Source of the DNA: Clytia hemisphaerica
Taxonomy: Eukaryota > Cnidaria > Hydrozoa > Leptothecata > Clytiidae
NCBI GenBank assembly: GCA_902728285.1
Contig: CACVBU010000865.1
Span: forward strand, 4,245,015-4,309,014
Length of the DNA stretch: 64,000 nt
Direction of reading: 5' to 3'
Below, piece by piece: positions 808 through 28,606 of this stretch (position 1 is its first letter; every line of letters starts with the position of its first letter). Both the position numbers and the translations under genes were made by a program. The notes beneath the pieces are model-generated. The model was given only the letters and a program-made list of their open reading frames with translations. It made no database searches and was not told the origin of the DNA.

Positions 808-1498
808 CTCGGGTAAGTTATGGCATGTCTTAAATTTACCATAATTTTTAGATCGCATTAGTCGACAGAAAATGACCAAACAAATGACTGAACATGAAGG
901 GTACTATGATGTAGTTTCTAACCTGATGTATAACCTAATTGTTTTTTCGCTGATTTTAGCGAAAAACCGCAAAAACTGATTATTACGTAATAATCGATGA
1001 CGTCATCAAAACAAAAAATTGAATTTCTCAAGAATGGTTTATCCAATTGTCTTCAAACTTTCACCAAAGATGTATCTTACTAAAGTCGATCATTTGAAAA
1101 AAAATTTTTTTCGAAATTTTGATGACGTCAGCAGAAATTAGTGAAAAATGAAAAATCCTTTTTTCTGCTGACGTCATCAAAAATTCGGAAAAATCTTTTT
1201 TCAAATGATGGACTTTAGTAAGATACATCTTTGGTGAAAGTTTTAAGACAATTGGATAAACCATTCTTGAGAAATTTAATTTTTAGTTTTGATGACGTCA
1301 TCGATTATTACGTAATAATCAGTTTTTGCGGTTTTTCGCTAAAATCAGCGAAAAAACAATTAGGTTATACATCAGGTTAGAAACTACATCATAGTACCCT
1401 TCATGTTCAGTCATTTGTTTGGTCATTTTCTGTCGACTAATGCGATCTAAAAATTATGGTAATTTTCAGTTTTTGAGACATGCCATAACTTACCCGAG
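808..1498. mobile_element. Foldback element / MITE, 691-bp near-perfect palindrome
   Basis: The left arm begins CTCGGGTAAGTTATGGCATG at 808 and the right arm ends with its reverse complement at 1498. The arms are about 330 bp each (808-1136 and 1163-1498) with a short AT-rich spacer at 1137-1162. Embedded palindromes TGACGTCA and TTACGTAA recur in both arms. There is no coding capacity. Confidence 0.93.
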
Positions 1499-3032: not shown

Positions 3033-6000
3033 TGTGTAATTTTCTGATGTGCAATTTTATAGCGGCAGTTTCAAAAAAATCTCAAGAACATCTATATCTT
3101 TACCTATCTCTGTAGTTTGAGCACTCTTGGATTGGGTGGAGAGTCTTCATTTAAGACGCTCACTATTTGCATTACGCATTGCTCGCTGCTCGCAGTTTGA
3201 GCACTCTTGTGACTCCACAATGCAATCCACAAAATGTGTAACCGTACATCATGTGCCCAAGTTCAGGAGTTGCCATAAAGCCATTATGGTAATAACCGGG
3301 AGGGCACATTGCTATACATTGTATCTTTACCTATCAACATTTTATCAAAAAAAACTTAGCATATTTTTCTGTATAAGCTCTTTATAACTAAAAAATTCAT
3401 CTGGAACCACAAGTAAAGAACTGGTGTATTTAATCATGATTGTAAACCAATTTTGCGTTAAGTTTCCTGAGTATAAACGTATATTCACATATTATCAGAT
3501 TCATTCATAAAAGAAGCTTGACATACGAAATCCTGTCAATGAACTATAGAATATATCGAATATATCGAAAAAATTAAGATCAATAAGCATTGGCAAAAAT
3601 TAAAGAAAATATCATCAAAAATAATTGTCTGTTCCCAAGGAACTTGATCCTTGGCTCATCGGCTCATTTATGGAATTATCAAAAGGGTAAATTTGAATCC
3701 AATCCAATCTATAAGTCCGCTTTATTGATACTGATAGCGTTCACCAATAAAATATGTATAATATCAATAAATTGTGCAAGTTGCTGTGTGGTACCAAATT
3801 ATAAGGGTTAAGATAAGCCATTGTTGACTGAATCAAACAAACCAAACTTAAAGATATCAGAAAAATACGATGGGAAAGTATTGCAGCCAAAATCAGACAG
3901 ATTCATTCAAGCAGAGTAAATTTTAATAACTATGAGGGCGGTCAATGTAAAATCTCATACATTAAAGATTACCATCATTAATAGCATAATTAGCATAATT
4001 ATGTTATTGTTTCGGGCTCCAAACCTGGGAAGATCGATATTCTTATAAAAAATATTTCTTATAAACTACCTCCACAACCCGACCATGTATAGCATAGCAT
4101 TACGCAATGGTTTTTTCTAAACATGGTAATACGAGATTTCGCATTGAACTGCTTGCTATTGCAGTAGAATGAAATTTTAAAACAATGGATCGTCGCAACT
4201 CGCACGTTTGGGTTGTTTTCAGATTATGAAGAAACACCAGAAACCTAAAAGACTAAACCATCAAAAAATCAATCGAGAAACAAAAAGACAAAATACCCCC
4301 TAGATTTCCAGACAAAAATAATCAATCATTATCGAATACTCTAAAAAGATAAATCTTGTGCTAGAAATAGAAATTCAAGACCTTAGGAATTTGTTTGACA
4401 AACATGCAACACAGACTATGATATGATTCTGTGGTGCAATAGTTTAAGGTACTGTCACGTCAACTCCAAGGTTATTAAGTGTACTGGTTCGAGTCCTGGC
4501 TAAGGCCGTCATTTATAATCGGAAAAATTAATATTTCAAGTTCGAGTAAACTTTGCGCAGATAAATGCGCATGCGTAACTAGATACCACAAGTAGTCAAT
4601 ACTTGAAAATATATAATCATAATGAAATGCGATGGGTTGGTCGGTCGGGGTGGAGGTGTCCTATAGTAAATCAACAATATATCCAAGTCACTTAAAGAAT
4701 TGAAGTCTATTTTCATTAAAAAAGAAAGATTTTTGTTGAAGTTACTTCTATTTTCATTTAATTTTCATAATTTAAGAGTGTCATGAAAAAGAGTGTCCGG
4801 GACATAGCGCATCGCTGCCCTAGAGGTCCAAAAGACCTTTAGACTCAAAAAGGACGCACGACCACGCCTCTTTAGAGCCCCCAGGGTGGGTTTCGAGCAA
4901 GACACTTTTGATACACCGGTCATCAACGGTACTAATTGTGCACGCACAATGAAGCAACTATGTTGAGAGCAAAGGGTATCGCAAGTGCACGAGCTTCGAG
5001 CGAACAAGTTCACATTACGAAACGGGGTACCATAACATCCCCAGGAACCGGCTGCCGCATGTTAAACCATGAAATTAACCATGGTTAGACGCTTACAGAC
5101 TGGTATGGACTGCAGCGCGAAAACCTCCTTTCCTGGACCAGGTTCCGTCGCGTAATTTTGCGACAACATGATTGTTGCAGCTTTACCTGACAAATGAAAT
5201 ATGCTATCTTATTACTTGTGGTGAAACCCTCTACGCATGCGCATATTCTCCGATGCTATGCAATGAAGTTATCATTTGAACATTTTTCAATTTAATGGTC
5301 TAAATAAAGTGTGTGATTTGTTTTACCAATTAGCGAGTAGTTGTTTAACCTGATACTTTCCACTCTACACATTTCATTCATTTAATTTAGATATGCGTAC
5401 GAAATTATTACTTGTGGTTCTCTCATATCCATAATTCGCCGTAAGCAGGCAAGAAATTAATTCAAATCAAACACGGAAAAAAGTTATTTGAGCATATTGA
5501 GAACGGTGATTAAAAGCATCGAGAAAAATTAATTTTGATTCTTGAAAACATTAATCCTCTGTATGGAAAACGTTGATTTTGAGCACACTCTTTCTTTTCA
5601 AATTCTTTTCAATGCATTCTCTCATTACGTCGTAAACTGTTTGTTATTGCTGACATTAAGCGCTAAAATATTTTTGAGATCATAGCTATCGAGAGCTGTG
5701 ATCCGGGGAGGTACTAAGTTTGCGAAATGACGGGTATATCCGAGCCAAATCTCGAAATCGACCCTTCGAGAGACTGAATTTCGAGAAGTTTTTGCCAAGA
5801 CCCTCAAAGAGACTATAATACCCCAACAAACAAATTTTTCAAATTTTAATCCGCCAAATTTCAAGAATTTATGACCCTTTGAGGGAGTTGATTTTTGATT
5901 TTCGTAATTTTGGAACCCTTAAAGAGACTCGATTGGTTTTTAATGGTTTTTGTACCCGATTCGAGAGTGCGAATAAAGAGATCCTTTCAGCATACTCAAC

Positions 6001-9735: not shown

Positions 9736-10941
9736 CCCAGCACCACAGACAGTATCAAACAAGCTGTATCAGACATTCCGCAAGGACACAGAACGAGTTA
9801 CTCTAAAGGAAAATTAATCCCAGAAGATTTCAGTTTGACTTAGGTGCGTTTAGGCTCAGTATTTTCCTCAAGAAGGTTCTAACAAACTAATTGGACAAAA
9901 AGAGATCGACTCAGAAGAACTTTTGGGACAAAAAGCAGGACTTTAATCTGATTTTTTTTGAGTTGCATATTTATCAATGCACACGTTATATTATGATTTG
10001 TAAAATTTGTAGAGAGGTATATAAGTAAAAACTATTGTTAAAAAAATAAGGAAATACTTTCTTAAATATACGTATAAAAAATCTAAAAAAAAATTCTATC
10101 ATTCTAAACATTTTCTATTCCTTATATTGTACCAGTGCAATGTCATCTGTAATGTCAATTTTGTCCCCAGTGGGAAAAATACGCTTTCAAAAATACTATT
10201 TCAGCCCCACTGGAAAATTTACTTTGTTTTTATCCGCATTTGAAATGCAATGTACATAATTGCACTCCAAAACCATCCCCACTAGAATTTCTTAAGCTGG
10301 CAATTATAGAATTTATATCCCCATTGTGATTTCAATAGAAATTTTATTCCCACTGCGGGAAGAAGTTTCACCGGGGCTGTGAGACAGGGGTGTTTCATTG
10401 CAGTGGTACATATCATGGCTACTCGTCTACATTGTTTATAAAAAGTATTTCTAACTACATATAGAAAACTCTAAAGTGTGAAGGAGGCCGGGGGAGGGGC
10501 ACTTAGGCTAAACAGGGGAAGGGTATGTGCGAGCCATACCCTTTCCATACCTAAAGAGTCCCTAAAGGGGTACAAATTTGTATGTTGGTCTCTCAAAGGG
10601 TCCGAAAATCACTAAAATATAGAATTTACCTTTCTATTCTTAATTTTTCGCTCAAGACCTAGTAACCACACCCTCTTCCAGGGCGAAGAGCAGCAACTTG
10701 ATAAAGCAGAAAATTATACGGAAAAAAAATTCGCACTAAATTCATATATGCTTATTTTCAGGATATTGTTCAGGTAAAAATTAATCTGAGTTTCCTTGAG
10801 TTGAGGAGCTATTATCCCTAACAAATTCCCTAACATTTTCCCTTGTTTTGCTCTACCAAGAAAGCAAACTACTTGATCAAGAGATTAAAAAAACATAAAA
10901 AAACATAACTAAAATAGAACGAATTACAATTCCTCCTTCTT

Positions 10942-11151
10942 CTAATTTCTCTGCTCTAATATCTTCAGCCTCATTAATTCCGTTTCCGAATTAGTCCGAT
11001 CGGATTCAAGATGTCGCCGTTCATCCGATAACGTAAACCAAACGGGTAATGCACACCTTGTACCGGACTTCACGCCGAGTACACCATGAAGGTTTTCTAT
11101 GCTTTTGGATCGGAAAGCAACCATCCGTCCACATTTTGGTCTCACTTGAGC
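10942..11151 (-). CDS. P3H: P3H exon 12: distal His and Arg, stop codon (aa 616-684)
   Basis: PKCGRMVAF, ENLHGV (third iron ligand H637) and GTRCALPVWFTL (R647) are the catalytic C-terminus. The frame closes at TAG 10944-10942 after KILEQRN. The next codons downstream, 10941-10924, read KKEEL then TAA. Acceptor TTTTAG. Confidence 0.95.
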   Translation of the reverse strand, partial: AQVRPKCGRMVAFRSKSIENLHGVLGVKSGTRCALPVWFTLSDERRHLESDRTNSETELMRLKILEQRN

Positions 11152-14100
11152 CTAAAATGGGAAGAAAAATATTTCAACCTTTCAACTTCAAGTCGCAATA
11201 TTTTTGTCCGATCAACGTTTCATAGGCGTTTCATAGGCGTTCCAAGGTAGCTTCCAGGGCACAACCCCAATAAAGACAGTTTTTTTTTAATTTTTGACGA
11301 ATTTTCGCGTACCCCAAAGCTACCAAAAAGCTTTGGAGGCGCTGTCAGAGGTTGCATCAGCACAGAGACCATTCAAAAAGTACGTAAGCTAAAATATAAG
11401 TAAAATTCAAAAGTACTCCCCCCATCCGCGTACATACGTTTTCCGATTTACCCTCCCCCCTCTAGGAATTTTTTTCAAATTGTAGCAGAAATTAACTGAC
11501 GCAAGTTCAGGTCTTGATTTTAATGATATAATTCTTTCAAGACAAATCAAAGTTAAAGAAATTTGAAGATTGTACTAGGTTATGCTTTTATACGCTTTTC
11601 GAAGGACCCCCCTCCCATTTCAGAGCGTACGTACTTTTTGAATGGTCCCATATAGGTTTCAGCTTATATCGTGGAAGTGCCGACACTTTGGATCTCCGGT
11701 ACGAACTGTTCCCCTTTAAGAGATTTTACATTGACGGTTAAGGTTTGACATGAAATTCATCCTACCTGAATTTTGCCATCATGGTTTGCAAAGATGAAAT
11801 TGCCTCCTTCAAAATCGTCATTCAAATACAACAATGCACTGTGGTAAAGAAAATGGAAGTGAACGAACCGAAATCATTTTGAGACCACCACGTATGAAAA
11901 ACAATTCAAACAACACTCTTGATATAGAAAGACTTGATGCAATGGGATCTCGCGGTAATCCAAATTAATAACGGTTCCCGTCAAGAGTAAAACGTAGTAA
12001 AATGATCTCCTGTAATTTGAATTTCTCTGTAGTTTCAACACATTTTACTTCCGGCCAGGGGGGGACTGGTACTAGAGTCTTGGGCATTATGATATTTAGT
12101 GACGTGGTGGTATAACCAAGAAACTTAAAAATCCTTTTAGTACCACGACGTACTAAAATACCAAAAAGGCGGTATCCAGACTAAAAAATCAGAACTTTTG
12201 AGAAAAATGGTCTAGAGAAGAAAAAAATTGTCCTCAGAAGACCAAAATTGGGTGGTCTCTGTGCCAAAACATCCCCAAAAATTTTATTACATGGGCAATA
12301 AAAGACCATTCCTCCAAAATGGGGTGATAGTATGCAAAAGATTCTCGAGAACCCTTCTAGTACTCACATATGTCTGAGATTTTGGTACTGACCCCCCCCC
12401 CTGTTTCCGCTGGAATTCGAATCGGCGAAAGTTAACTGTATATTGGTCAAACTTTTTACACTTTTAGCATGCTTGGATTCGAAATACAGAAGTACAGTAC
12501 AGAGAAAGTTCTACGGATACTCTTACTGCATGGTTCATTTTAAAATAGTGATTGAAAGATTATGATTTAAATTATATTTGGCCCTAGAGGGGGATTAGAG
12601 ATATGTTAATCCTAACCCTAAATTACAAGCTATCATGTTATCAGAGATCTAGAAAAGAAGATTCCCTGAGTCTGCCCAAGTTATCGAGGCCATGTGCCCA
12701 TATACTCTTATGGTAAGTTCCCAAAAATCATGGAAATTTTCTCCTCTTTCAGTGATCAAAGCAAGGTTTTAAGTATGAGACGGATAATTCATTATTCATT
12801 TTAGCAGCAGAATAGCACATATTACTGAGGTTAAGTATGCCGGGATAATCACGACGACGGACGAAAAACTACGAAAAATGTAATAGGCTAGTGAAAATAC
12901 GAAATTTGATTGGTTAAAACTCACTAGACTGTTACATTTTCGTCCGTCGTCGTGATTTTTGCCGATTTACTTAACCTCACTATTACCGAGTTTATGTATG
13001 TGTGTTTTTCCAGCGACGGAGACGGTAAGGTTCTAATTTGGCTAGATCATGACCAACTGAGGACGACGGTAAATCAGCACTCTTACCGTCCTCGATTTTG
13101 GTCCTCAAAAGTGCAAATACATAAACTCGCTATTCTTGAATTTAGAGACTGAAATTCTCTTCATATACTTTGCTAAGACGGAAATCAGTCTGACACGGAA
13201 GAAGATTCAACATAAGCGTTGAAACAAATACCTGTAATCTCTCCAAGTATATGCAGGTGATTTTTCCGGACATGTTCCTGGACCATCCTCATTCACCAGA
13301 CAGTTGTCCGAATGGATTGGATGACTGAGATGGTCTCCAACGTTTGATGCTGAAAACAAATAACGAAAAGATTACCTGAAGTGGATTAAATTGTGCGTGA
13401 ATTTGGGCTGTTTTCTCGAAAATTAGTCCCCACAAAAAATTTAAAATTTAGCACAAAACCCTAGGAAAATGAAAGAAATGGGATGAGATTAAAAGGAGAA
13501 CGATTCGCGAACATTTATTCATTTAGAGGTCTTTGTGTGACGAAGTTTTGGTTTTTGTTAGAATAATTTTCCCAGCATCCCATTCATTCTAGTTGACAAG
13601 ACTTGACTGCATGTTTTGAGCAAGTGATTCATGAATTATATAAAGAAAACAAATTTGAACATACCATCAGCCAAAGCATGTCGACAAACCAAATGAGTGA
13701 ACGCAAAATTTAAACGTTTGGGTAGATCGAAATATTCTTGCACCAGCAATCTTGTACGCTCGCTTAATTTGACGTACAAATCTGTTTGATTGACCGAGAC
13801 CTTGCCTTCTTTAGCTGCCTGTAAGTAGAAAATGCACTCATCAGCAAAAGATTCATAACAGATGATCGGGTTAAAGTTTACAAAGCTGTGTGTTAAAGGT
13901 TTTCTTTTCACGGAAGTGTTTCTGTTTCATATCAGACAAGTATTTCATATCAGGACAGTGTCTTGTTATTATTATATTATGCTGATATAAGCAAAAAATG
14001 ATTTTCTTTTCCTCTTTCTGACCAATCTTGCTCAACATCCATGTCAATCCAATGTTAAAAAGCTTGTGAATTAAAATTGATGAGTAAGCAAACGATATCA

Positions 14101-17100
14101 CTCTTATTTAAAAACAAAACCTTTAAGGCTAACTTGATTTTCTTTGAACTAACGAATGTTTATTCACTTTTTATCAAGAGTCTGTTAAACGCCTTCCATT
14201 TTTTGACGCGCCTTTCGCCCACGTACCTTACGCACCTTACGCGTCCGCACGCATCCAAAGGTGAACCAGAGGAGCCTACAGATAAAGGTAAACAGAGAAA
14301 ATCCATTTGGCTAATAGAGGAAGTCTATATTGAGGACTGGGAAAACCATTTGGAAAACTAGCTTTTACCGTTCTTGAACTACAAAAACGGAAAAGCGAAA
14401 AACTAGCATTTTAGTCAAACACATAAAACACTGATGTAAGATATAAATCCTTCAAAATAAGATCAGCCATCTTACATCGACAGCACTTTTGATGGTGACA
14501 CCTTTAAATGTTTCTTTCTTTGTGAAAGGGTGATCAGCATCTCTATGACTGTGTTTGTACCCGTCTCCCCCTTGCGCTAAATTCTATAAGACAAACGTAA
14601 TGTGTTATCTATAATCCATGTAATACAGTAATATGGGTGTTATTTGATAATACGATACTTGTTATGGGATACAGTTTGTATAAACTATTGCAAGTCCCTT
14701 TCCTTGTTTTTTGCTTATTTTCACTATGTCTGAATTTGTCCCCTAGCATGCTAGACTATAAGAATTAAGATTAAAAGAAAACTCCGCAGTCTTACAGATT
14801 CAATATAATTACGACACAAAAAAACATATTTAGCAGTTTTAAAAGTTTCGAATTCTAAATTCTAGTCATCTAACGATTTGACCTTTAAGAAAAATTGATC
14901 TAATGGACACAAATGGGATGGATTTTATTGCTTTAAATATTGGTTTTACGCAGAAAGAAAAATTTTAACAATCTAAAACTTTTGCGAGGTCAAAAATCGC
15001 GAAATTTGCGACCTAAAACATACGCGAATCGTTTGGAAAGGAAATCTTTGCAATTAAAATTAGCTTAACTTGGATGATTATAAAACTTATTAAAAAAATT
15101 ATGCTGAGAGTTTAATATCTATTTCCATTTCGAAATTATTTTTCGCGAGCATAGTGCGCCAGTACTAGATGCTTCACATTACGATTGAGTGCCGATACTT
15201 TAGTTACTCTTTCGTTATTTTTTAGGAAAATTAGAATAATTCTAAAACTAATTATTAGTTTAAATATCATTTTCCCAGACATTAGCTATTAGGGGGATTT
15301 AGTGGTTAAAATAGATTTAGATGTCGGTACCAACTCGATTTAGATCTTTAATTTGTTGAGTTCTTTTAGTGATTAACATTTGGTTAGATTCCAGTGTTAG
15401 TTCCTAGAAAGAAATGAAAACATTTGAAAAGTTAGAGACACTCATTACAAATCAGTTTTTCGCATAAATCTTTATCTAAAATTCAGTGAAAAATAACACA
15501 AGCAATAGGAAATTTTAGATATTCGGGCTACAAATTAAAACTTTTCTAGTTTATCAGAAGCAGTAGCAGTAAGAAACACAAACAGGTCAAACATTTAGAA
15601 CATTTAATCAATATTGCAAGCCAAGAAAAATAACTCGAACCTCTTTAACTGAAACTCGAATGTCTTCTTAACTCGAAAAAGGTTTCTAAGGTCCCTCAAA
15701 GTAACAAACGCTTATAAACAAGTCTCTATTACACGAAATCTCAGCCGAAATGTTCGAGTTACGGAGACTCCACTGCACTATAATCAATTTTTTTGCATGA
15801 TAGCAAATAGTTTTATAACATGCAAGTCCAAGAAATATCTAGTTTGCTAGTTAGAAAACTAGAATTCCATAAGCCCCAAAAATCGGTGTTTTTGATGTAT
15901 TTTCTTAGCGTCACTGCCTATTACCCCTTACCCCCTCGCGTCATTATGACGTTAGTCGTGGAAAACATCGATATTTGAGTGGCCCCTTACAACATCTGTT
16001 TGACTATAATCGACCTCTTAGAGGTAGAAAAAAACCAGTAACTGCAGTTGTACTTATCTTGAATACAGTTGACCCTCTCTCTGACGCTCTACTATTGGAT
16101 ACGTTCCATTAGTCGGTGATATTGAAAGCCACCGTCAACGAGAAACTCTCATAAACGTCGCTCTACTATTCGATACTCCCTTATTTAATGAAAATCTAAT
16201 TCCCCTTGAAAGTCGAATAAGAGGGCTTCAACTGTAGTAATTAAGGGTAAAACACAAAAACAAACACTTTGCAATACCTTGACAAGTTTCATGATTTCAG
16301 TACATTCTTCTTGCGTAGAAACATTATCAAAGGCTACTCGGTTCGTTCCGTTCAATTGTTCTTCCTCCATGAGTAACACGGATTGCTAAAATAGAGTACA
16401 AAAATCAGTGGAAATTCAAGGTTTTTTGCCTGAGACGACTTTAAATGGATTTGAAATAGAAAATAAACACATAGGGTGCCCCGAAAAAAGTCATTCTCAG
16501 AATATACAAGTATAAAAGTTTTTCCAGGACACCCGGTATAATCTTTAGATGAATTATGCAGAATTTCGAGACAGAAAAGCCTTTTTGTATATACTTCACG
16601 GAGATGGAAATTCGCCTGAGACGGAAGAACTTTTTATATTGAAAAGTATTCATTTTCAGGATCATACCTTTCTATTACAAAGTACTAATCAGATTTTCAA
16701 TATCCGATCAAAGATTTTGCTTGGCAGGATTGAGAAACTTTTCCGGGGTATATGAAGACCAGTTGATAAGGTTTACAGCGAGTTTATGTATTTGCATATT
16801 TGAGGAGTGAAGGAAGCGATTTGGAAAAACCCGCAGTTCTGACCCGTGAAATCGAGGACAGTAAAAATACTGATTTAGTCAATTAGGATCTCTCAGAACA
16901 TATCAGAAGCTAACCATCTCCGTCTCAGAAAAAAACACACAAACTCACTTATAATGGTGAGTTTTTACCTTGATTTTAGGGTGTGTTTGCCACCTGTTAG
17001 CATTACGATAAGCTCTGTGGACAGCTTGATGGCCTTTGATGGATTCAGCATCACCTCTAATACCTCTCTCATCTGTGGTCAAATCTTCTGCTACCATTCT

Positions 17101-20100
17101 GTAGATCCTGTCCAACATCTAAGGTGGAAACATAGGCCGTTTCACAGTCGAAATGACGGTTTCTTTTCAAAACTTTGGACCAATAGTAAGTCGTTATTAG
17201 CGCACAGTGGTCCTGATTACCCATTACGCTTTGCGACTGTGAAATGGTCTATTTAGGTCTTATAACAGCTGGCAAAGAAGGTCATAACAACGTCTAGCTG
17301 ACGTCCCTAACGTTCATATAACGTTAGATGAACGTTAAAACAACGTTGTGTCGACTGGGATAAGATCGTGTACAATGAAACTGAAAAGAATCTTTAGACG
17401 TTTTTTATAAGAAGGTCCGAAATTTTTGAAGCCTTGGTATGTTCTTAAGTTTTGACGTTTAAGCCCAAATTTATGTCCTTGAAATTTTCTTAATAAGACC
17501 ATTTTCTGAGATTTTGGGCGATTTCTTAAGAAACTGGGTGTTTTAGAGTCCGCAAAGCCTTAAAACTTACTTCTAACATTTTGGTAATTGAAGCCTTACG
17601 AAAAAGCGTTCATTTACTCTGCAACATCTAGGGTACTATTCAATCATAATTGATTTGAAATGCCATCAATCCGTCAAGGGGTAATGAAAATTAGTTTGAT
17701 TTAAAGAGAACTGTTCGAATTAGAGAGAGGGAGAGGTGTTTACATCATTGATCTCAGAGCCCCGAAAGGGCTAGATCCAAAACTCCTGGATGGGAAATGA
17801 AGCCACTTATTTCCCATACAAAACATGTGATCCGCGTGGTTTTGAAACAAAATTTCAAAAGGCGGGGCAAATCTTAAGGTTTCACTTTTTCTTGATTGAG
17901 AAAGGTTGCAGGTTCCACTCTAGTCCCTTCGGGGCTTCAAACTCAATGATTTACATACTCTCGCATCATCAGCAGTAATATCTTTGTCAACTTTATCATC
18001 CAAATATCCATCCAATATTTGCGCCAAATTCAATTCGATTGCGAACTGTTTCATGTATTTCTTCGCTCTCTATAAGGGAAACAAACACATTTCATCTAAG
18101 ATTTGCGCCAAATTCAATTCGATTGCGAACTGTTTCATGTATTTCTTCGCTCTCTATAAGTGAAACAAACGCATTTCATCGAATATAAGCACCAGTCTAA
18201 ACTAGTCGACTTTCTGTCCTGCCTCTTCTAATTATTTGAGTAGGCGAACACTGGGCGCAAAGTTGGCAGTTAAAATCTTTGCTTGCAAAAGATTGAAAGA
18301 AGACATTGCATGTTGACGTCAAAAGAGGGCAATGTATCGGCTTTAGACAGCCAACTATCTGCCTTAGATAGAGTTATTAGAATAGCCAAACTAGAGCTAA
18401 GGTTCCACATTGTGGCCGGTTAGCTCAGTCGGTAGAGCATTCGCCTTATAATCCTAAGGGTTGTGGGTTCGATCCCCGGTCCACTGCGAACTCAGCGAAT
18501 AAGTAACTCAGATTGAGTACGATCTAGGCGGTAAATAACAGGGAGCTGAAAGTGAAAGAAGGTGTGCTGCTCAGCTTTAGAATTCGATCTCCCAGGTCTA
18601 GCGCAAATAGAATTCACTCCTGGCTCCACCGACAGCCGCTAGAGAAATAATACAAAATAAGTGAAACCTAATGAATATTTTCGTATCCAAAACAAAGCTT
18701 ACTGGTCTTGGGCCAACAGCTTTTCCTTTGACAGCTGGTTGATTTTGGTACCAGTAGAGATTCTTTGACATAACAGGATCACTGGGAATCATGAGTAGAT
18801 AGCTCTCTGCTGCGTTCGTTGCTTCTATCAGATTGTTTTCTAAATAGAGTAAATAAATTTTCTGCGTTCAAAATAGTCAAACGACGAAGTATTGGTTATA
18901 CCCCCAGAACAAATAGTAATTAAAGTTCACGCTCTCCAACTCGACGTTCTACGATACGCTCCCTTATTCGATAAAAATTGAATTCCCCTTGAAAATCGAA
19001 TTAAAGAGCGTCACTGTGTAATCTTTTAGGGAAATGGCGAAATAATTTATTAATATCTATTACCGTATGAACGTTTATTAAATAATTTTTACCCAAGGTC
19101 ATTTTATAAAAGAAAACGTGAACCTTGTTTGGCCTTTATGTTATTATTTGAGTACAAATAAGTCAATTTAGGGGTCAAAATCAGTTCAAATACTAAAATA
19201 ATACAATTATTATCATATGGGGTATCTCCTTGCAGCTACTTGTTCAAATAAACTCGAAACTCGTTTATTGAAAAGTGTTCCTCAAAGTCGAATAGTTTAT
19301 TCAAAGTAATACGGTAACATTATTGAAGATATAACGTATCAATATTTTACCTTTTTTCTAACCAACTCAATATTTACCACCGGGGGTTGATATAAAGAAC
19401 GTAGAAAAATAACCATCCCAAACAATTCCAAAAATTCCAAAAAGGTTGACAATTTCGTAGATCCTTACCTTGAAAGTAGCAGTATTGTAGGTAATGAAAA
19501 TATTGTGGCACAAAATGCGTTCTGGATGATTCTCCATCAACTTTGGTTAACGCTACTTGACATTTTTTACGGCACGCCAAAATGCCTTGAAAGTGTTTGA
19601 ATAGAGAGGCTGTGTAGGAGACTTCTTTTGTCGTATCTTGTTCTTCACATACTGCGTTACACTTGGCAAGTTCTTTGTAGAAAAGTGTTAAAGATTCTTC
19701 GAAAGTCGAGATACATTGTTTGAAGTCGCTATCGGTGTATGCTTTCTCACCTGAAGGTGGAAGAGAGAATAGGATTTTTTAAACGTTGTATTCTAGACTG
19801 AAGTCTAGACTGATAACATTTAGCTTAGAATTGTAAGGGAGGAGCGGGGTGATTAATCCGTAATAGCCCTGCTGTAATCACCCCGCGAAAATAGAGAAAA
19901 AGAAAATCTTCGACTTCACTACGTTCAGCCAATTTTGAAATGTTTTCAATGAACCTCGGGACTATTATTCCCAAATCACCCTCCAAACCATGTTATTACT
20001 AGTACTAATCGTATTATACGTGTTATACAGTAATATATGTGTTATACGATAATACGATAACTGGGACGATGTTACTTTAGTTCGTATGAGCTGTAATAAT

Positions 20101-24982: not shown

Positions 24983-27900
24983 ATTTTACTCAACTGAAGT
25001 TAAGAATGGGTTTTAGACAAAGACTTTGTACAACAATCTCACGTATAAAGTACGGTGTATATAGGAGGTCTGTTTACAGACAAGGACAGCCCTAACAACA
25101 AAGAAATGTAACAGAAAGTAGGCTGGTGATTAAGCAGATCAACATAATGATAATCCATAATGATCGAAAAAATAAATACAAGATACAGATGGAAAGCCAG
25201 CCAATAAAAAATCGGGATAACCATGAGAACCAAAATCACTCACTCTCCTTCTCCTAAAAACTGCTATGCATCTGTCGGATATTATGACACTATAAGTTGT
25301 CTTTAAGACACCGAGATCACTTATCTCTGACTTTTTGACATGATCCTACAATAGCGGAAGTGTGGCCAGCTTTATAGCCAACTAGTCCATAATTTTGTTT
25401 CAAGCAGACGTTTGAACATTCGAAAATCTGACGTAAAAGAAACAAGCAACATGCTGAATGGACCTACCTAATGATTAACATCAGATGAAAATAAGAAAAA
25501 AGTGACAATAATTGTACAAAAATTCAGAATGGAAAAATACAGTAAAGCTTGTGTGTTCAATAATGTAAAATGGTAAAAAGGAATTTCCCCAAATACGAAA
25601 ATCACTTAAACCATTCAGGCCCAATTTGTACAAAAAATCAGAAAAAAGTAATGACAGGATTTTGCACAAAGTCCAAAAAACCCTATTTTAGGCAGTTTTT
25701 GGCCCAAATTTGCCCAAATATTTTTTTTCTTCAAAAATCTGGCTCCGTCAAATTTTAGGCATTGCCATTTTGCATCATTGTGCAAAAAATCAGAAAAAAA
25801 TAATGAGTCAACTTTGAGAAAAGCTATATTTTCTTATTTGGTTAAAGGGAATTTCCCCTAAAAACGAAAATCCGTTTTTTAGGGCGAAAAAGAATTTTCC
25901 GGGAAAAACCACTTCAGCCATTCTTTAGAGAATCTTGCCCTCCATCTTTGTACAAAAAATCAGAAAAAAGTAATGACAGGATTTTGCACAAAGTCCAAAA
26001 AAGCCTATTTTTAGGTAGTTTTTGGCCCAAATTTGCCCAAATAAATTTTTTCTTAAAAATCGGGCTCCGTCGCGTTCTGGACATTGCCATTTTGCATCAT
26101 TGTGCAAAAAATCAGAAAAAACTAATGAGCCAATCCTGAGAAAAGCTGGTAACAGACGGACGAACGAACGGACGAACGGACGAACGGACATGGGTTAATT
26201 TATAGAACCTCCACCGGGTCCAAAAACAACATGGCGGACTTGTAAATTTAAAAACAGGAGACCATTCCACAGGAAGTCTGTAACTAGTTAGCCTATACAG
26301 TTTTTTCTTTACAAGCAACCGGGTTGCCAACCTCGAGCACTGAAAATTAGCCTAAAGAAAAAGTTTTTTAGATAATCTAACCATGACAAACGGTAGCCCT
26401 TGACCCAATAAGCACAGATATGGTATAATATGAGGGATGATCAAAAAGCAAATTTTTCAGAAACTGAGCTAGAATGCTAAGCAACCTCAGCCCTGTATCG
26501 TAAATTGGAGTTGCTTATAAAAAAGATTGTGTATCTAACGTGAAAGAATATATCTGTTTTCGTGGACGGGTGTCCAGTTTTTAAATTGACTAGTCCGTCA
26601 TGTTGTTTTTTCTTCAGATTCATCAGATTTTCGAACGTCTAAATTTCAGAACATTCGAATTTTGCATTTCGTCAAGCAAACTAGAAACAAAATATATGTT
26701 TTCGTGATGGAAATAATATAAAGATGACACACCAACCTTTCTTGTACAAAGATATATGGGGTGGTTCTTCTAATGACGTCAAATCTGCCCAATCTTTGTT
26801 CTGTTTTGACATTAAAATTTCTATATTTTCTTTCATCAATTCATTGGATGGGTTGGCTTCGAAATGAGTGTATGCTGCAGCAAGTGCTTTGCTCACTTCT
26901 CCAATCTAAAATAAAAGCAAAATATAAAATTATACAACGGAGTCTCCATAACTAGAACCTCTACAACTCGAACAAGTTATCTTGTCTCTTCAGTTAATAA
27001 TGCCTTATAAATCTTACTCCATAACTCGAACAAATTTGTGCTTATCGCGAGTGTTCGAGTTATGAAGACTCCACTGTACAGCCATTTCAGAGCAATTTGT
27101 ACGTTATGCCACGCACTTATTTGACTTTTGACCACCAGTAATAACACTCATAGTAGATTATGTTCGCACGTGACGGTTCTGTTTCGCTCCGAAACGAAAT
27201 GAAGCCATTCTATTGTTTACAAGCGACGTAAAACTTGTATTTAACCAATAGAATGACTTCGTTTCGTTTCTGAGCGAAACAGAATCGTAGCATGTGAGCG
27301 CTACGAACTTAATTGGGCGTAAATTATTTACAATTGAAGGTGTTTTTTCGGAATGGTCCTATGATGCTGTTCTTTGAACCCTATTCCCTTTGATGGATAT
27401 TTTTTTTATCTATAGGAACACAAAAAATAGAGAGTTAGCCCTTTCAAGTCCCTTAATTTTTACACAGATAGGTATAACTTTTCGAACCCTTTCACAAAGA
27501 ACTTTGAATACACCAACCCTTAACGCTTTTGAGGAGACTGGTAACGAAAATAAAAAATTCTTCTCGATGATGGTAATCGAAAGCACAAGTGTAGGAGTTC
27601 TCTTGTGGAATATGTAAGATACCCTTGCATTATTAAAGCAATAAATTAATGTAAATATTTGCTTGGTTTGATTTAGTTGTAGCCTAAAAATGCCGTGCAC
27701 TGAGAACTAATGTTTCTTGTAAATTCATTACCAGTCCCCTAAAAAGCTGACTGCACCGCTAAGGGTTGGTAGGTGTATCCGATTTAAGTAGTTACTACCT
27801 TAAAAATTTGCACGAATGTTAAAACAAGATTGGGCCATTTCATTGTATATCCATACAGGGGGTGGGTAAACATTTAAAGGGGGCAACGTCTGGGAAGAAT

Positions 27901-28606
27901 TTCCAGGGGAGGGGGGTTAAAGGAGTGTCGTTTCATTTTTCAGGGGGTAAAAAGTTATTCTAAAATTTCCAGGGAATAAAGCACTGATTTTAGTTTCTTC
28001 ACCATCACTTTAAGCATGAAAAATACTTAAAGGGTTTCCAGGGTTTCTTTGCTAATTTTACAGGGTATCCACACATTTCCATGAATATCTTTTTGACTTG
28101 AATAGGTTGGTCCAAATTCCTGTGTATAGATTTGTAACGGAACAGCCTATTAAATTTTTAAGAAGGTATACCTTATATAGTGAGTATTGAAGAAAACTGT
28201 ACGGTTCTTTATTCTCGAATAATTCTTTAACATATTTTGCAATCCGTCCTCTTCTGCCCAAAAACTTTTCTTTACAAAGTTGAAAACATGATCTTGTCTT
28301 GATAACATAATGTAAGAAATTCAGTTGACCATCAATTAAAGTTGAATAAACACTCTGCGTATCTTTAATAGAGTCTTGACAACGTAACCAGCATTGTCCT
28401 TTAACTTCTTGCTCATGGCGGTAATCTGCTATTGCTTTTTCAAAGAATGATACAGCTTCTAAATGATTGTCATTATCATAAGATGTCCTTCCTGATTGAT
28501 ACAGTTCATCATATGCAGGCTTGTCATCATAATTTTCTATGTGTTCTGAAAACACGATAGTTATAAGGTACACTTTGAAAACCAAACATATGACAAGGTT
28601 CTTCAT
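10942..28606 (-). CDS. P3H: Collagen prolyl 3-hydroxylase (leprecan family), 12-exon gene
   Basis: Exons joined 5' to 3' on the minus strand: 28606-28172, 26905-26737, 19750-19469, 18839-18703, 18069-17959, 17118-16969, 16385-16278, 14583-14476, 13818-13665, 13349-13232, 11838-11766, 11151-10942. All introns are GT-AG, phases agree, and the sum is 2055 nt (684 aa), close to the roughly 700-aa family size. Residues 1-20 are a hydrophobic signal peptide. The N-terminal half has the TPR-like, CxxxC-rich repeats of leprecans/CRTAP (C72/C76, C107/C111, C232/C236, C261/C265). The C-terminal half is the 2-oxoglutarate/Fe(II) dioxygenase: HPIHSDNC gives H564 and D566, ENLHGV gives H637, GTRCAL gives R647 for 2OG. 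Known family role: 3-hydroxylation of proline in procollagen in the ER. No C-terminal KDEL-type signal is encoded before the stop, but one follows it in frame (see findings). Which vertebrate paralogue (P3H1/2/3) is closest is not resolved. Confidence 0.95.
11367..11647. mobile_element. P3H: MITE with GACCATTCAAAAAGTACGTA termini
   Basis: Perfect terminal inverted repeat of 20 bp, followed on both sides by pyrimidine- or purine-rich CCCCCC blocks. 281 bp, in the last P3H intron. The terminus resembles that of the 52997-54966 element. Confidence 0.88.
11766..11838 (-). CDS. P3H: P3H exon 11 (aa 591-615)
   Basis: A 73-bp exon coding SALLYLNDDFEGGNFIFAN, the conserved jelly-roll strand pair of 2OG dioxygenases (family SAILYLNGDFDGGNFYF). 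Acceptor CCACAG, donor GTAGGA. Confidence 0.96.
12827..12978. mobile_element. P3H: MITE with GAGGTTAAGTATGCCG-type termini
   Basis: Arms of about 40 bp, including CACGACGACGGACGAAAA inverted on the other side. ACT flanks both ends and may be the target duplication. P3H intron 10. Confidence 0.85.
13232..13349 (-). CDS. P3H: P3H exon 10: iron-binding HxD motif (aa 552-591)
   Basis: HLSHPIHSDNCLVNEDGPGT holds the facial-triad H564 and D566; the exon ends in PAYTWRDY. Acceptor TTTCAG, donor GTATTT; the codon is split after AG. Confidence 0.96.
13665..13818 (-). CDS. P3H: P3H exon 9 (aa 501-552)
   Basis: KEGKVSVNQTDLYVKLSERT, then NFAFTHLVCRHALADA across the junction; the family reads YFSYSHLVCRTA. 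Acceptor TTACAG, donor GTATGT, phase 1 out. Confidence 0.95.
14476..14583 (-). CDS. P3H: P3H exon 8 (aa 465-500)
   Basis: 36 codons, phase 0. GGDGYKHSHRDADHPFTKKE and FKGVTI align with family SGDGYRGQTSPHTPNEK and FYGVTV. Acceptor CTATAG, donor GTAAGA. Confidence 0.92.
15630..15777. repeat. P3H: Truncated member of the GGAGTCTCCATAAC element family
   Basis: Ends TGTTCGAGTTACGGAGACTC at 15751-15770 like the intact copy at 26933-27078; the left terminus is missing. P3H intron 7. Confidence 0.6.
16064..16236. mobile_element. P3H: Small TIR element, TA target
   Basis: TACAGTTGACCCTCTCT at the left is inverted as AGAGGGCTTCAACTGTA at the right. It ends 42 bp downstream, in the sense of transcription, of P3H exon 7. 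Confidence 0.75.
16278..16385 (-). CDS. P3H: P3H exon 7, start of catalytic domain (aa 429-464)
   Basis: 36 codons, phase 0. LNGTNRVAFDNVSTQEEC corresponds to family LNGSQRVVMDGVISDHEC, the first strand of the dioxygenase fold. Acceptor TTTTAG, donor GTATTG. Confidence 0.93.
16969..17118 (-). CDS. P3H: P3H exon 6, charged helical linker (aa 379-428)
   Basis: 50 codons, phase 0 on both sides, acceptor CCTTAG, donor GTAAAA. The segment MLDRIYRMVAEDLTTDERGI is highly charged and stands where the family has a variable coiled linker before the catalytic domain. It is the least conserved exon; its place is supported by phase and order. A shorter version ending at an internal GTGGCA donor would break the frame. 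Confidence 0.75.
17959..18069 (-). CDS. P3H: P3H exon 5 (aa 342-378)
   Basis: 37 codons, phase 0 on both sides, acceptor TTATAG, donor GTATGT. It begins RAKKYMKQ and runs through an acidic stretch, DDKVDKDITADDAR. An 84-bp tandem duplication upstream on the minus strand (18070-18181) carries a second copy of its acceptor and first 50-odd bases. Confidence 0.85.
18018..18181 (-). repeat. P3H: 84-bp tandem duplication spanning the P3H exon 5 acceptor
   Basis: The block from ATTTGCGCCAAATTCAATTC to CATTTCATC occurs twice with an offset of 84 bp and two or three differences. Each copy has acceptor TTATAG and the first 50-odd bases of exon 5. Only the downstream copy continues into the complete exon. 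Confidence 0.93.
18417..18492 (+). repeat. tRNA-like SINE head, family B, copy 1
   Basis: GCCGGTTAGCTCAGTCGGTA is a near-perfect A box and D-arm; GTGGGTTCGATCCCCGG is a good B box. The anticodon and acceptor stems do not pair well, so a working tRNA is unlikely. Lies in the P3H intron between exons 5 and 4. Confidence 0.75.
18703..18839 (-). CDS. P3H: P3H exon 4 (aa 296-341)
   Basis: Acceptor TTTAG and a phase-1 join restore Glu. The exon codes for AAESYLLMIPSDPVMSKNL and ends in VGPRP before donor GTAAGC, matching the family segment AKTYLLFFPNDEVMNQNL...GPRE. Confidence 0.93.
18925..19020. repeat. P3H: Fragment related to the 16064-16236 element
   Basis: CGATACGCTCCCTTATTCGA and GAATTCCCCTTGAAAATCGA are close to the interior of the 16064 copy. 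P3H intron 3. Confidence 0.6.
19061..19316. mobile_element. P3H: Related TIR element in P3H intron 3
   Basis: Starts TACCGTATGAACGTTTATTA and ends TTATTCAAAGTAATACGGTA, the same family as 2637-3032 but more diverged, 256 bp. Sits between P3H exons 4 and 3. Confidence 0.7.
19469..19750 (-). CDS. P3H: P3H exon 3: central CxxxC repeats (aa 202-296)
   Basis: Acceptor CTTCAG completes a Gly codon from exon 2 (LYKK-G-EKAY). The exon carries KCNAVCEE and ACRKKCQ, then YFHYLQYCYFQ, the repeated leprecan signature. Donor GTAAGG leaves phase 1. Confidence 0.93.
19751..22148. other. P3H: P3H intron 2, proximal part
   Basis: Besides the tandem repeat at 19974-20746, no gene or known element is visible. 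A stretch at 20890-20970 is relatively GC-rich but not coding. Confidence 0.6.
19974..20746. repeat. P3H: Nested tandem duplication, about 410 bp with internal subrepeat
   Basis: TACGTGTTATACAGTAATAT and ATGATATGATGTGATACGAG recur four times; the longer block starting CAAATCACCCTCCAAACCAT recurs at 19974 and 20382. P3H intron 2. Confidence 0.9.
22149..22156 (+). promoter_or_regulatory. TATA-like box of the nested gene
   Basis: TATAAAAA stands 56 bp before the ATG at 22212, a reasonable distance for a short 5' UTR. No other promoter element is evident. Confidence 0.4.
22212..22542 (+). CDS. Nested gene exon 1 (aa 1-111)
   Basis: Starts MDIKDAKITLKELL and contains VPFKMLFVQHGGEIRNAAI. It is acidic and mostly helical in appearance, with no signal peptide. 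I chose ATG 22212 because it is the first ATG after the TATA-like box. Donor GTTAGT after phase 1. Confidence 0.7.
22212..23537 (+). CDS. Nested two-exon gene, 225 aa, HNH/treble-clef-like C-terminus
   Basis: Exon 1 is 22212-22542 and exon 2 is 23191-23537. Donor AAAG/GTTAGT and acceptor CACCAG join in phase 1 to give 678 nt with no internal stop. The N-terminal 110 residues are unrecognised. The C-terminal third has TICYIN (C151), LGGHM (H174), then YILPICPGHN (C190, H193, N194). This arrangement resembles small HNH-like domains seen in eukaryotic uncharacterised proteins, usually with a CxxxC knuckle before the GGH; here the second Cys of that knuckle is missing, so metal binding or nuclease activity is uncertain. 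A TATA-like box lies 56 bp upstream of the ATG. The gene lies wholly inside P3H intron 2 on the opposite strand, and its own 648-bp intron holds a SINE. The function is not known; the HNH relation is an inference from a few residues. Confidence 0.7.
23060..23145 (-). repeat. tRNA-like SINE head, family B, copy 2
   Basis: The minus strand reads GGTAGAGCATTC then AAGGTTGTGAGTTCAATCCC, the same frame of matches as 18417-18492. It lies inside the single intron of the nested gene. Confidence 0.7.
23191..23537 (+). CDS. Nested gene exon 2 (aa 111-225)
   Basis: Opens with TKVGFGGLKVYNVNG, continues through W136 and W140, and carries the GGHM and ILPICPGHN motifs. It ends KWPNPL with TAA at 23535-23537. 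Confidence 0.72.
23570..23800 (+). repeat. P3H: Dispersed repeat, copy inverted at 63065-63285
   Basis: Shares GTCACGTGACCTAGGTAGGA, TTTTCAGCCGAAGCACG and CCTTCAGGCTTTATAAATCT with the inverted copy. P3H intron 2, just after the nested gene. Confidence 0.85.
24916..24982. repeat. P3H: (ACAG)n microsatellite
   Basis: About 16 uninterrupted tetranucleotide units in P3H intron 2. Confidence 0.98.
25560..26215. repeat. P3H: Dispersed repeat family C, two tandem copies with GGACGAAC tail
   Basis: Blocks CAAAAAATCAGAAAAAAGTA, GATTTTGCACAAAGTCCAAA and TTTTTGGCCCAAATTTGCCC occur twice about 330 bp apart and again at 49428-50165. The array ends in a (GGACGAAC)n microsatellite and CCTCCACCGGGTCC. Confidence 0.9.
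26737..26905 (-). CDS. P3H: P3H exon 2 (aa 146-202)
   Basis: Acceptor TTTTAG precedes IGEVSKALAAAYTHFEANP, which matches the conserved helix-turn-helix of leprecans (family: KAAAAAHTFFVANP). Donor GTTGGT leaves phase 1. The following intron is 6986 bp, the longest of the gene, and contains a plus-strand gene. Confidence 0.92.
26933..27078. mobile_element. P3H: MITE, TA target, GGAGTCTCCATAAC termini
   Basis: TACAACGGAGTCTCCATAAC at the left and GTTATGAAGACTCCACTGTA inverted at the right. 146 bp, directly next to P3H exon 2. The termini resemble those of pogo/Tigger-type MITEs. Confidence 0.75.
27162..27308. mobile_element. P3H: MITE with long inverted arms
   Basis: TTCTGTTTCGCTCCGAAACG inward to CCATTCTATTG, inverted with few mismatches at 27250-27290. 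The outer GTTCG/CGAAC also pair. P3H intron 1. Confidence 0.8.
27831..28115. mobile_element. P3H: Relative of the 46781-46971 MITE
   Basis: TTGGGCCATTTCATT and CCATACAGGGGGTGGGTAAA at the left, GGTTGGTCCAAA at the right, with repeated TTTCCAGGG motifs inside. Its right end lies just inside P3H intron 1, next to exon 1. Confidence 0.6.
28172..28606 (-). CDS. P3H: P3H exon 1: signal peptide and first CxxxC repeats (aa 1-145)
   Basis: The ATG at 28606-28604 opens a hydrophobic signal segment of about 20 residues, then a TPR-like stretch with CWLRC and CFQLC. The exon ends in SFLQYSLYK before donor GTATAC in phase 0; the family reads a similar NYLQFAYYK at this point, which fixes the boundary. 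Confidence 0.92.

Follow-up and report, generated by a model that had tools for sequence, protein, structure and literature searches.

An in-frame stop codon precedes a KDEL-class retrieval signal in one of two copies of a leprecan-type prolyl 3-hydroxylase gene of Clytia hemisphaerica

The vertebrate prolyl 3-hydroxylases (P3Hs) of the leprecan type end in signals of the KDEL class. P3H1 and P3H2 are listed with KDEL and P3H3 with REEL, and KEEL is found at the C-termini of PDIA2, PDIA4 and PDIA5 (PMC8263409). In the two known leprecan complexes, as described in PMC4847768, a signal of this kind is borne by P3H1 and P3H3 only, and these are proposed there to help keep the partner proteins in the ER. 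Loss of the signal by itself is documented for human LEPRE1, which encodes P3H1: the mutation c.2155dupC results in loss of KDEL only and is associated with non-lethal osteogenesis imperfecta (PMC3352923). In the siblings described there, the mRNA without KDEL appeared to escape decay. The second allele of these siblings carries a frameshift, and it is together with this second mutated allele that the KDEL-less allele causes disease. Intracellular P3H1 and CRTAP were undetected in the cells of one sibling, yet 85% of Pro986 was 3-hydroxylated (PMC3352923). PMC3865588 and PMC9956579 regard further alleles or splice forms that lack KDEL as being without function in the modification of collagen. 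A further type of precedent is provided by targeting signals that become exposed through readthrough of a stop codon, such as the peroxisomal form of LDHB (PMC4359377).

The gene described here occupies 28606 to 10924 on the minus strand of the window, by which we mean the whole stretch of 64,000 nucleotides that was analysed. It consists of 11 exons with AG/GT borders and encodes 634 residues up to an in-frame TAG (Table 1). The exon borders were placed by eye, guided by the match to P3H.

Table 1. Features of the prolyl 3-hydroxylase gene, in window coordinates and in the order of transcription
Feature	Position	Strand	Remarks
Exon A	28172..28606	-	start ATG 28606-28604; hydrophobic, signal-peptide-like N-terminus MKNLVICLVFKVYLITIVFS; start of TPR_leprecan
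Exon B	26737..26905	-	TPR_leprecan
Exon C	19469..19750	-	TPR_leprecan
Exon D	18703..18839	-	TPR_leprecan; exon alone under the Pfam cut-off
Exon D2	17959..18069	-	
Exon E	16278..16385	-	
Exon F	14476..14583	-	acceptor unlike between the two copies
Exon G	13665..13818	-	
Exon H	13232..13349	-	contains HPIHSDN (presumed H-x-D motif)
Exon I	11766..11838	-	
Exon J, last coding exon	10924..11151	-	C-terminal part of the 2OG dioxygenase domain, then TAG, KKEEL, TAA; acceptor CCCATTTTAG
In-frame TAG	10942..10944	-	closes the window copy after residue 634; CAG (Gln) in the C497 copy
KKEEL codons (10941-10927) and second stop TAA (10926-10924)	10924..10941	-	identical in the C497 copy, where they form the C-terminus

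By its domains the gene is classed as a leprecan-type prolyl 3-hydroxylase, in a copy that lacks the retrieval signal. In the window copy the leprecan TPR region (PF23557, E 6.2e-54) takes up residues 32-328, and a 2OG-Fe(II) dioxygenase domain is also recognized (PF13640, E 2.5e-11). Exon J alone matches human P3H1 (PDB 8k0e) at E 2.9e-10. When the protein of a second copy, on contig C497, is assembled, its relatives of solved structure prove to be human P3H1, at E 1.2e-93, and CRTAP, at E 1e-34. The HPIHSD sequence, the histidine of LHGV and the arginine of GTRCA align with human P3H1, and we take these to be the iron and 2-oxoglutarate ligands. The N-terminus is the same in both copies and is signal-peptide-like as judged by hydropathy only. 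A separate signal-peptide exon upstream of exon A was considered and ruled out, the ATG having been found inside exon A.

With E values of up to 10 allowed, TPR_leprecan yields eight exon matches across the genome, every one of them in this gene or its C497 copy. Each of the 10 exons searched across the genome has one match on the window contig (C594) and one on C497, with no further convincing match; exon D2 was compared with C497 only. Neither CRTAP nor another leprecan gene was detected in this exon-wise search of the genome. At C458:149205-149429 there is a distant match to the part of P3H that holds the 2OG oxygenase, with 42-46% identity over 46-74 residues of the query; it sits in an uninterrupted frame of 329 residues, unlike the many-exon P3H gene. 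Part of exon D2 and its acceptor are tandemly repeated just before that exon (window 18153-18069, minus strand). The additional copy in the window (RAKKYMKQFAIELNLAQILDEMCLFPL) is closed by a stop in frame; C497 likewise carries the additional copy.

The open frame at 11151-10942, in the last P3H exon on the minus strand, ends ...MRLKILEQRN and is closed by the TAG at 10944-10942. The codons that follow in the same frame, AAG AAG GAG GAA TTG TAA (10941-10924), specify KKEEL and a second stop. This arrangement had been pointed out in an earlier note made from the letters of this DNA, and it is reproduced here. The note had also called a chance match unlikely, and the counts agree: among the 7,602 stop-to-stop segments of the window (both strands, all frames), a single one ends in [KRHQSNDE][DE]EL, and it is the P3H segment. 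On C497 the same ending is found in two of 15,148 segments, the P3H end and an unrelated segment ending KKKDEL. A degenerate 18-base motif has 8 matches genome-wide as compared to 14 for the reversed pattern, so the motif alone is neither rare nor enriched. The significance of KKEEL lies in its position: it follows the stop directly and in frame, and the human relatives of this gene have a signal of this kind at their end. The note's statement that vertebrate P3Hs have endings of this class is likewise in keeping with KDEL in P3H1 and P3H2 and REEL in P3H3. The gene shares with the vertebrate P3Hs a leprecan prolyl 3-hydroxylase frame with a retrieval signal of the KDEL class at its C-terminal end. 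It differs from them in that the signal is KEEL, as in PDIA2, PDIA4 and PDIA5 (PMC8263409), and in that the stop separates this signal from the protein of the window copy.

The copy on C497, a contig of the same assembly, was found in searches with the motif and with the last exon and is nearly identical to that in the window. Its codon at the position of the TAG is CAG, through which the frame continues as ...MRMKILEQRNQKKEEL-stop, giving a protein with an intact ending, ...MKILEQRNQKKEEL. A KDEL-class C-terminal ER-retrieval signal is therefore present in the C497 copy, which ends in KKEEL, and absent from the window copy, which stops at LEQRN. C497 has 128,259 bases and C594 has 4,589,839. 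From its first base to its last the shorter contig is collinear, in inverted orientation, with the inside of the longer one, containment and collinearity being what is looked for in a haplotig. The first 2,500 bases of C497 correspond to C594:4376927-4379457 at 98%, and its last 3 kb to C594:4239227-4240356 in three pieces at 96-100%, arranged around an inserted multi-copy element. Blocks longer than 300 bases shared by the two contigs span the window from 36 to 63,582. Most are 87-99% identical, with lower values in repeats and in a single block at window 3319-3903 (71%). The largest gap without an aligned block of this length is at 46.8-62.5 kb of the window. C497 starts and ends inside the match to C594, which fits an unpurged second haplotype, and on the basis of this arrangement it is probably the other haplotype of the window region.

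Outside the exon F border, the two copies show 22 coding differences, of which 16 are synonymous, 5 are missense and 1 is the stop. There are 14 transitions and 8 transversions, and no frameshift was found outside that border. The site counts, from which the signal peptide was left out, put pS at about 4.2% and pN at about 0.41%. Good alignments were obtained for seven of the 10 introns, with differences of 0.9-5.4%; over the 1 kb behind the gene the difference is 1.1%. Introns C-D (629 versus 2,367 bases) and H-I align poorly owing to insertions, and intron B-C, too long for the test, was left out of the comparison. Mostly silent coding changes combined with this intron divergence make a pattern like that of natural polymorphism in a constrained gene. 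None of the 11 window exons is interrupted before the TAG, their intron borders are AG/GT, and pN/pS between the copies is ~0.1; a pseudogene is ruled out on these grounds. Two observations point away from natural polymorphism in a constrained gene. In exon J none of the three differences is silent, as against 16 of 19 elsewhere (Fisher p 0.013, for a comparison picked post hoc). At one of its missense positions the window copy has R where both the C497 copy and human P3H1 have P. At exon F the acceptor is rearranged in C497 (C497:113190-113383, compared with the window near 14583) and looks weaker there. The repeat in the preceding intron is expanded and TATAG is gone; use of an AAAGAG acceptor, which is in frame, would replace NL by K. 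The C497 copy may therefore have a splicing problem of its own at exon F, and neither P3H copy is proven fully healthy.

The explanation that we consider likely, and hold with considerable confidence, is that the window represents one allele of the sole leprecan-family P3H gene detected, in which a C-to-T nonsense change removes only the ER-retrieval signal. A different account of the two copies is that C497 is a recent segmental duplicate, the window gene being a paralogue without the retrieval signal and the other copy having kept it. Some introns do differ greatly by insertion, C-D being the clearest case, and control stretches of 3 kb gave a mixed picture. For two of these three, from C220 and C926, a full-length second copy was not found. 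The third, from the short contig C546, has a full-length counterpart at 98% on C428 but also partial matches at 97-98% on C617 and C737, so that with several near-identical relatives it is not a clean haplotig control. Duplication is nevertheless unlikely, as C497 lies wholly inside C594, collinear and with both ends within the match, and as a divergence of a few per cent fits heterozygosity in a very variable animal. The TAG rests on a single substitution and could stem from a wrong base in the consensus of the window contig, a suspicion to which the R for P in the same exon adds. Random error would not be expected to leave differences that are mostly synonymous, with the transitions, transversions and absence of frameshifts given above, and we regard this explanation as quite unlikely. 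A true allele is more likely than a sequence error.

The remaining alternatives would restore the signal from the window gene itself. The frame beyond the TAG is open and ends in the KEEL signal, an arrangement that resembles that of LDHB in placing a targeting signal in frame behind a stop. Programmed readthrough would then produce a minor ER-retained form beside a secreted one. If readthrough were functional, the stop would be expected to be conserved and to lie in a leaky context. Here, unlike in LDHB, the stop is absent from the other copy, which has CAG, and the context is unfavourable: UAG AAG ranks 177 of 192 stop contexts, with a score of -0.0021 as compared to 0.0119 for UGA CUA, under the human-trained LINfs3 model, whose coefficients come from PMC4359377. 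For the 101 bases that begin with the stop, the predicted fold is no more stable than for shuffled sequences (z 0.47; 130 of 200 shuffles at least as stable). Readthrough is thus not supported; it was rejected as the main reading, and as an explanation of any kind it is highly improbable. The earlier note had left two branches, a nonsense change or sequence error on the one hand and readthrough on the other. The former is favoured by the CAG codon of C497 running into KKEEL, and the latter, with its minor ER-retained form, found no support. An amber codon is a possible target of A-to-I editing, which would convert UAG to UIG (Trp), and the KKEEL end might in principle be restored in the mRNA either in this way or by alternative splicing. 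Human P3H1 is reported to yield splice forms with and without KDEL (PMC9956579). At this locus, however, inspection by eye showed no plausible donor-acceptor pair around the TAG, and the exon J acceptor is the same in both copies, so that restoration of the end in the mRNA is scarcely credible.

Under the nonsense-allele explanation, a C-to-T change in the last coding exon would have turned the Gln codon CAG into TAG, with loss of the last six residues, QKKEEL. The C497 copy and the human P3Hs suggest that the signal-bearing ending is ancestral. The window mRNA would escape nonsense-mediated decay because the stop is in the last coding exon. The shortened enzyme would presumably fold and enter the ER by means of its signal peptide, and it would then leave the ER because KDEL receptors no longer retrieve it. 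A close parallel is LEPRE1 c.2155dupC, in which a premature stop in the last exon likewise spares the TPR and catalytic domains and costs the protein its retrieval signal. The human mutation is a frameshift and a studied disease allele (PMC3352923), whereas the Clytia change is a single nonsense codon known from sequence. By analogy, the enzyme made from the window allele may be complete in other respects but leak out of the ER. It would then amount to a partial or full loss of function, hidden in the heterozygote by the other allele.

In kind the change is a nonsense variant by which a known enzyme loses its retrieval, and human genetics already offers the principle. It is a natural counterpart to the human allele of P3H1 in which nothing but the retrieval signal is lost, and it occurs in an animal for which one leprecan gene was detected. 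If the two copies are allelic, they offer a natural test of how much retrieval matters for P3H in Clytia hemisphaerica. There is also a practical consequence, in that the longer contig is the one normally annotated and may give the species a P3H with an unrepresentative C-terminus. Interest beyond this is modest unless the form without the signal is common in the population. It is conceivable, although we think it very unlikely, that both alleles are functional, one KEEL-bearing and retained in the ER and the other secreted, with the extracellular matrix as its target or its place of action. The species would then maintain a standing or even balanced polymorphism of localisation, and the form without the signal would not be a damaged allele.

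Several repeated structures were seen in the two contigs. An element of ~2.3 kb with long inverted ends lies at C497:125753-128014; it occurs at high identity in many contigs and is absent at the matching place of C594. At window 930-1450 a long inverted repeat (foldback) was seen by eye, with mirrored arms at ~940-980 and 1310-1360 (...TTTTCGCTGATTTTAGCG...). It is followed at 1680-2260 by a tandem array with a unit of ~30 bases (AAATTTCATCAAATAAAAATTTGACGCTC-like), which seems to be longer in the second copy.
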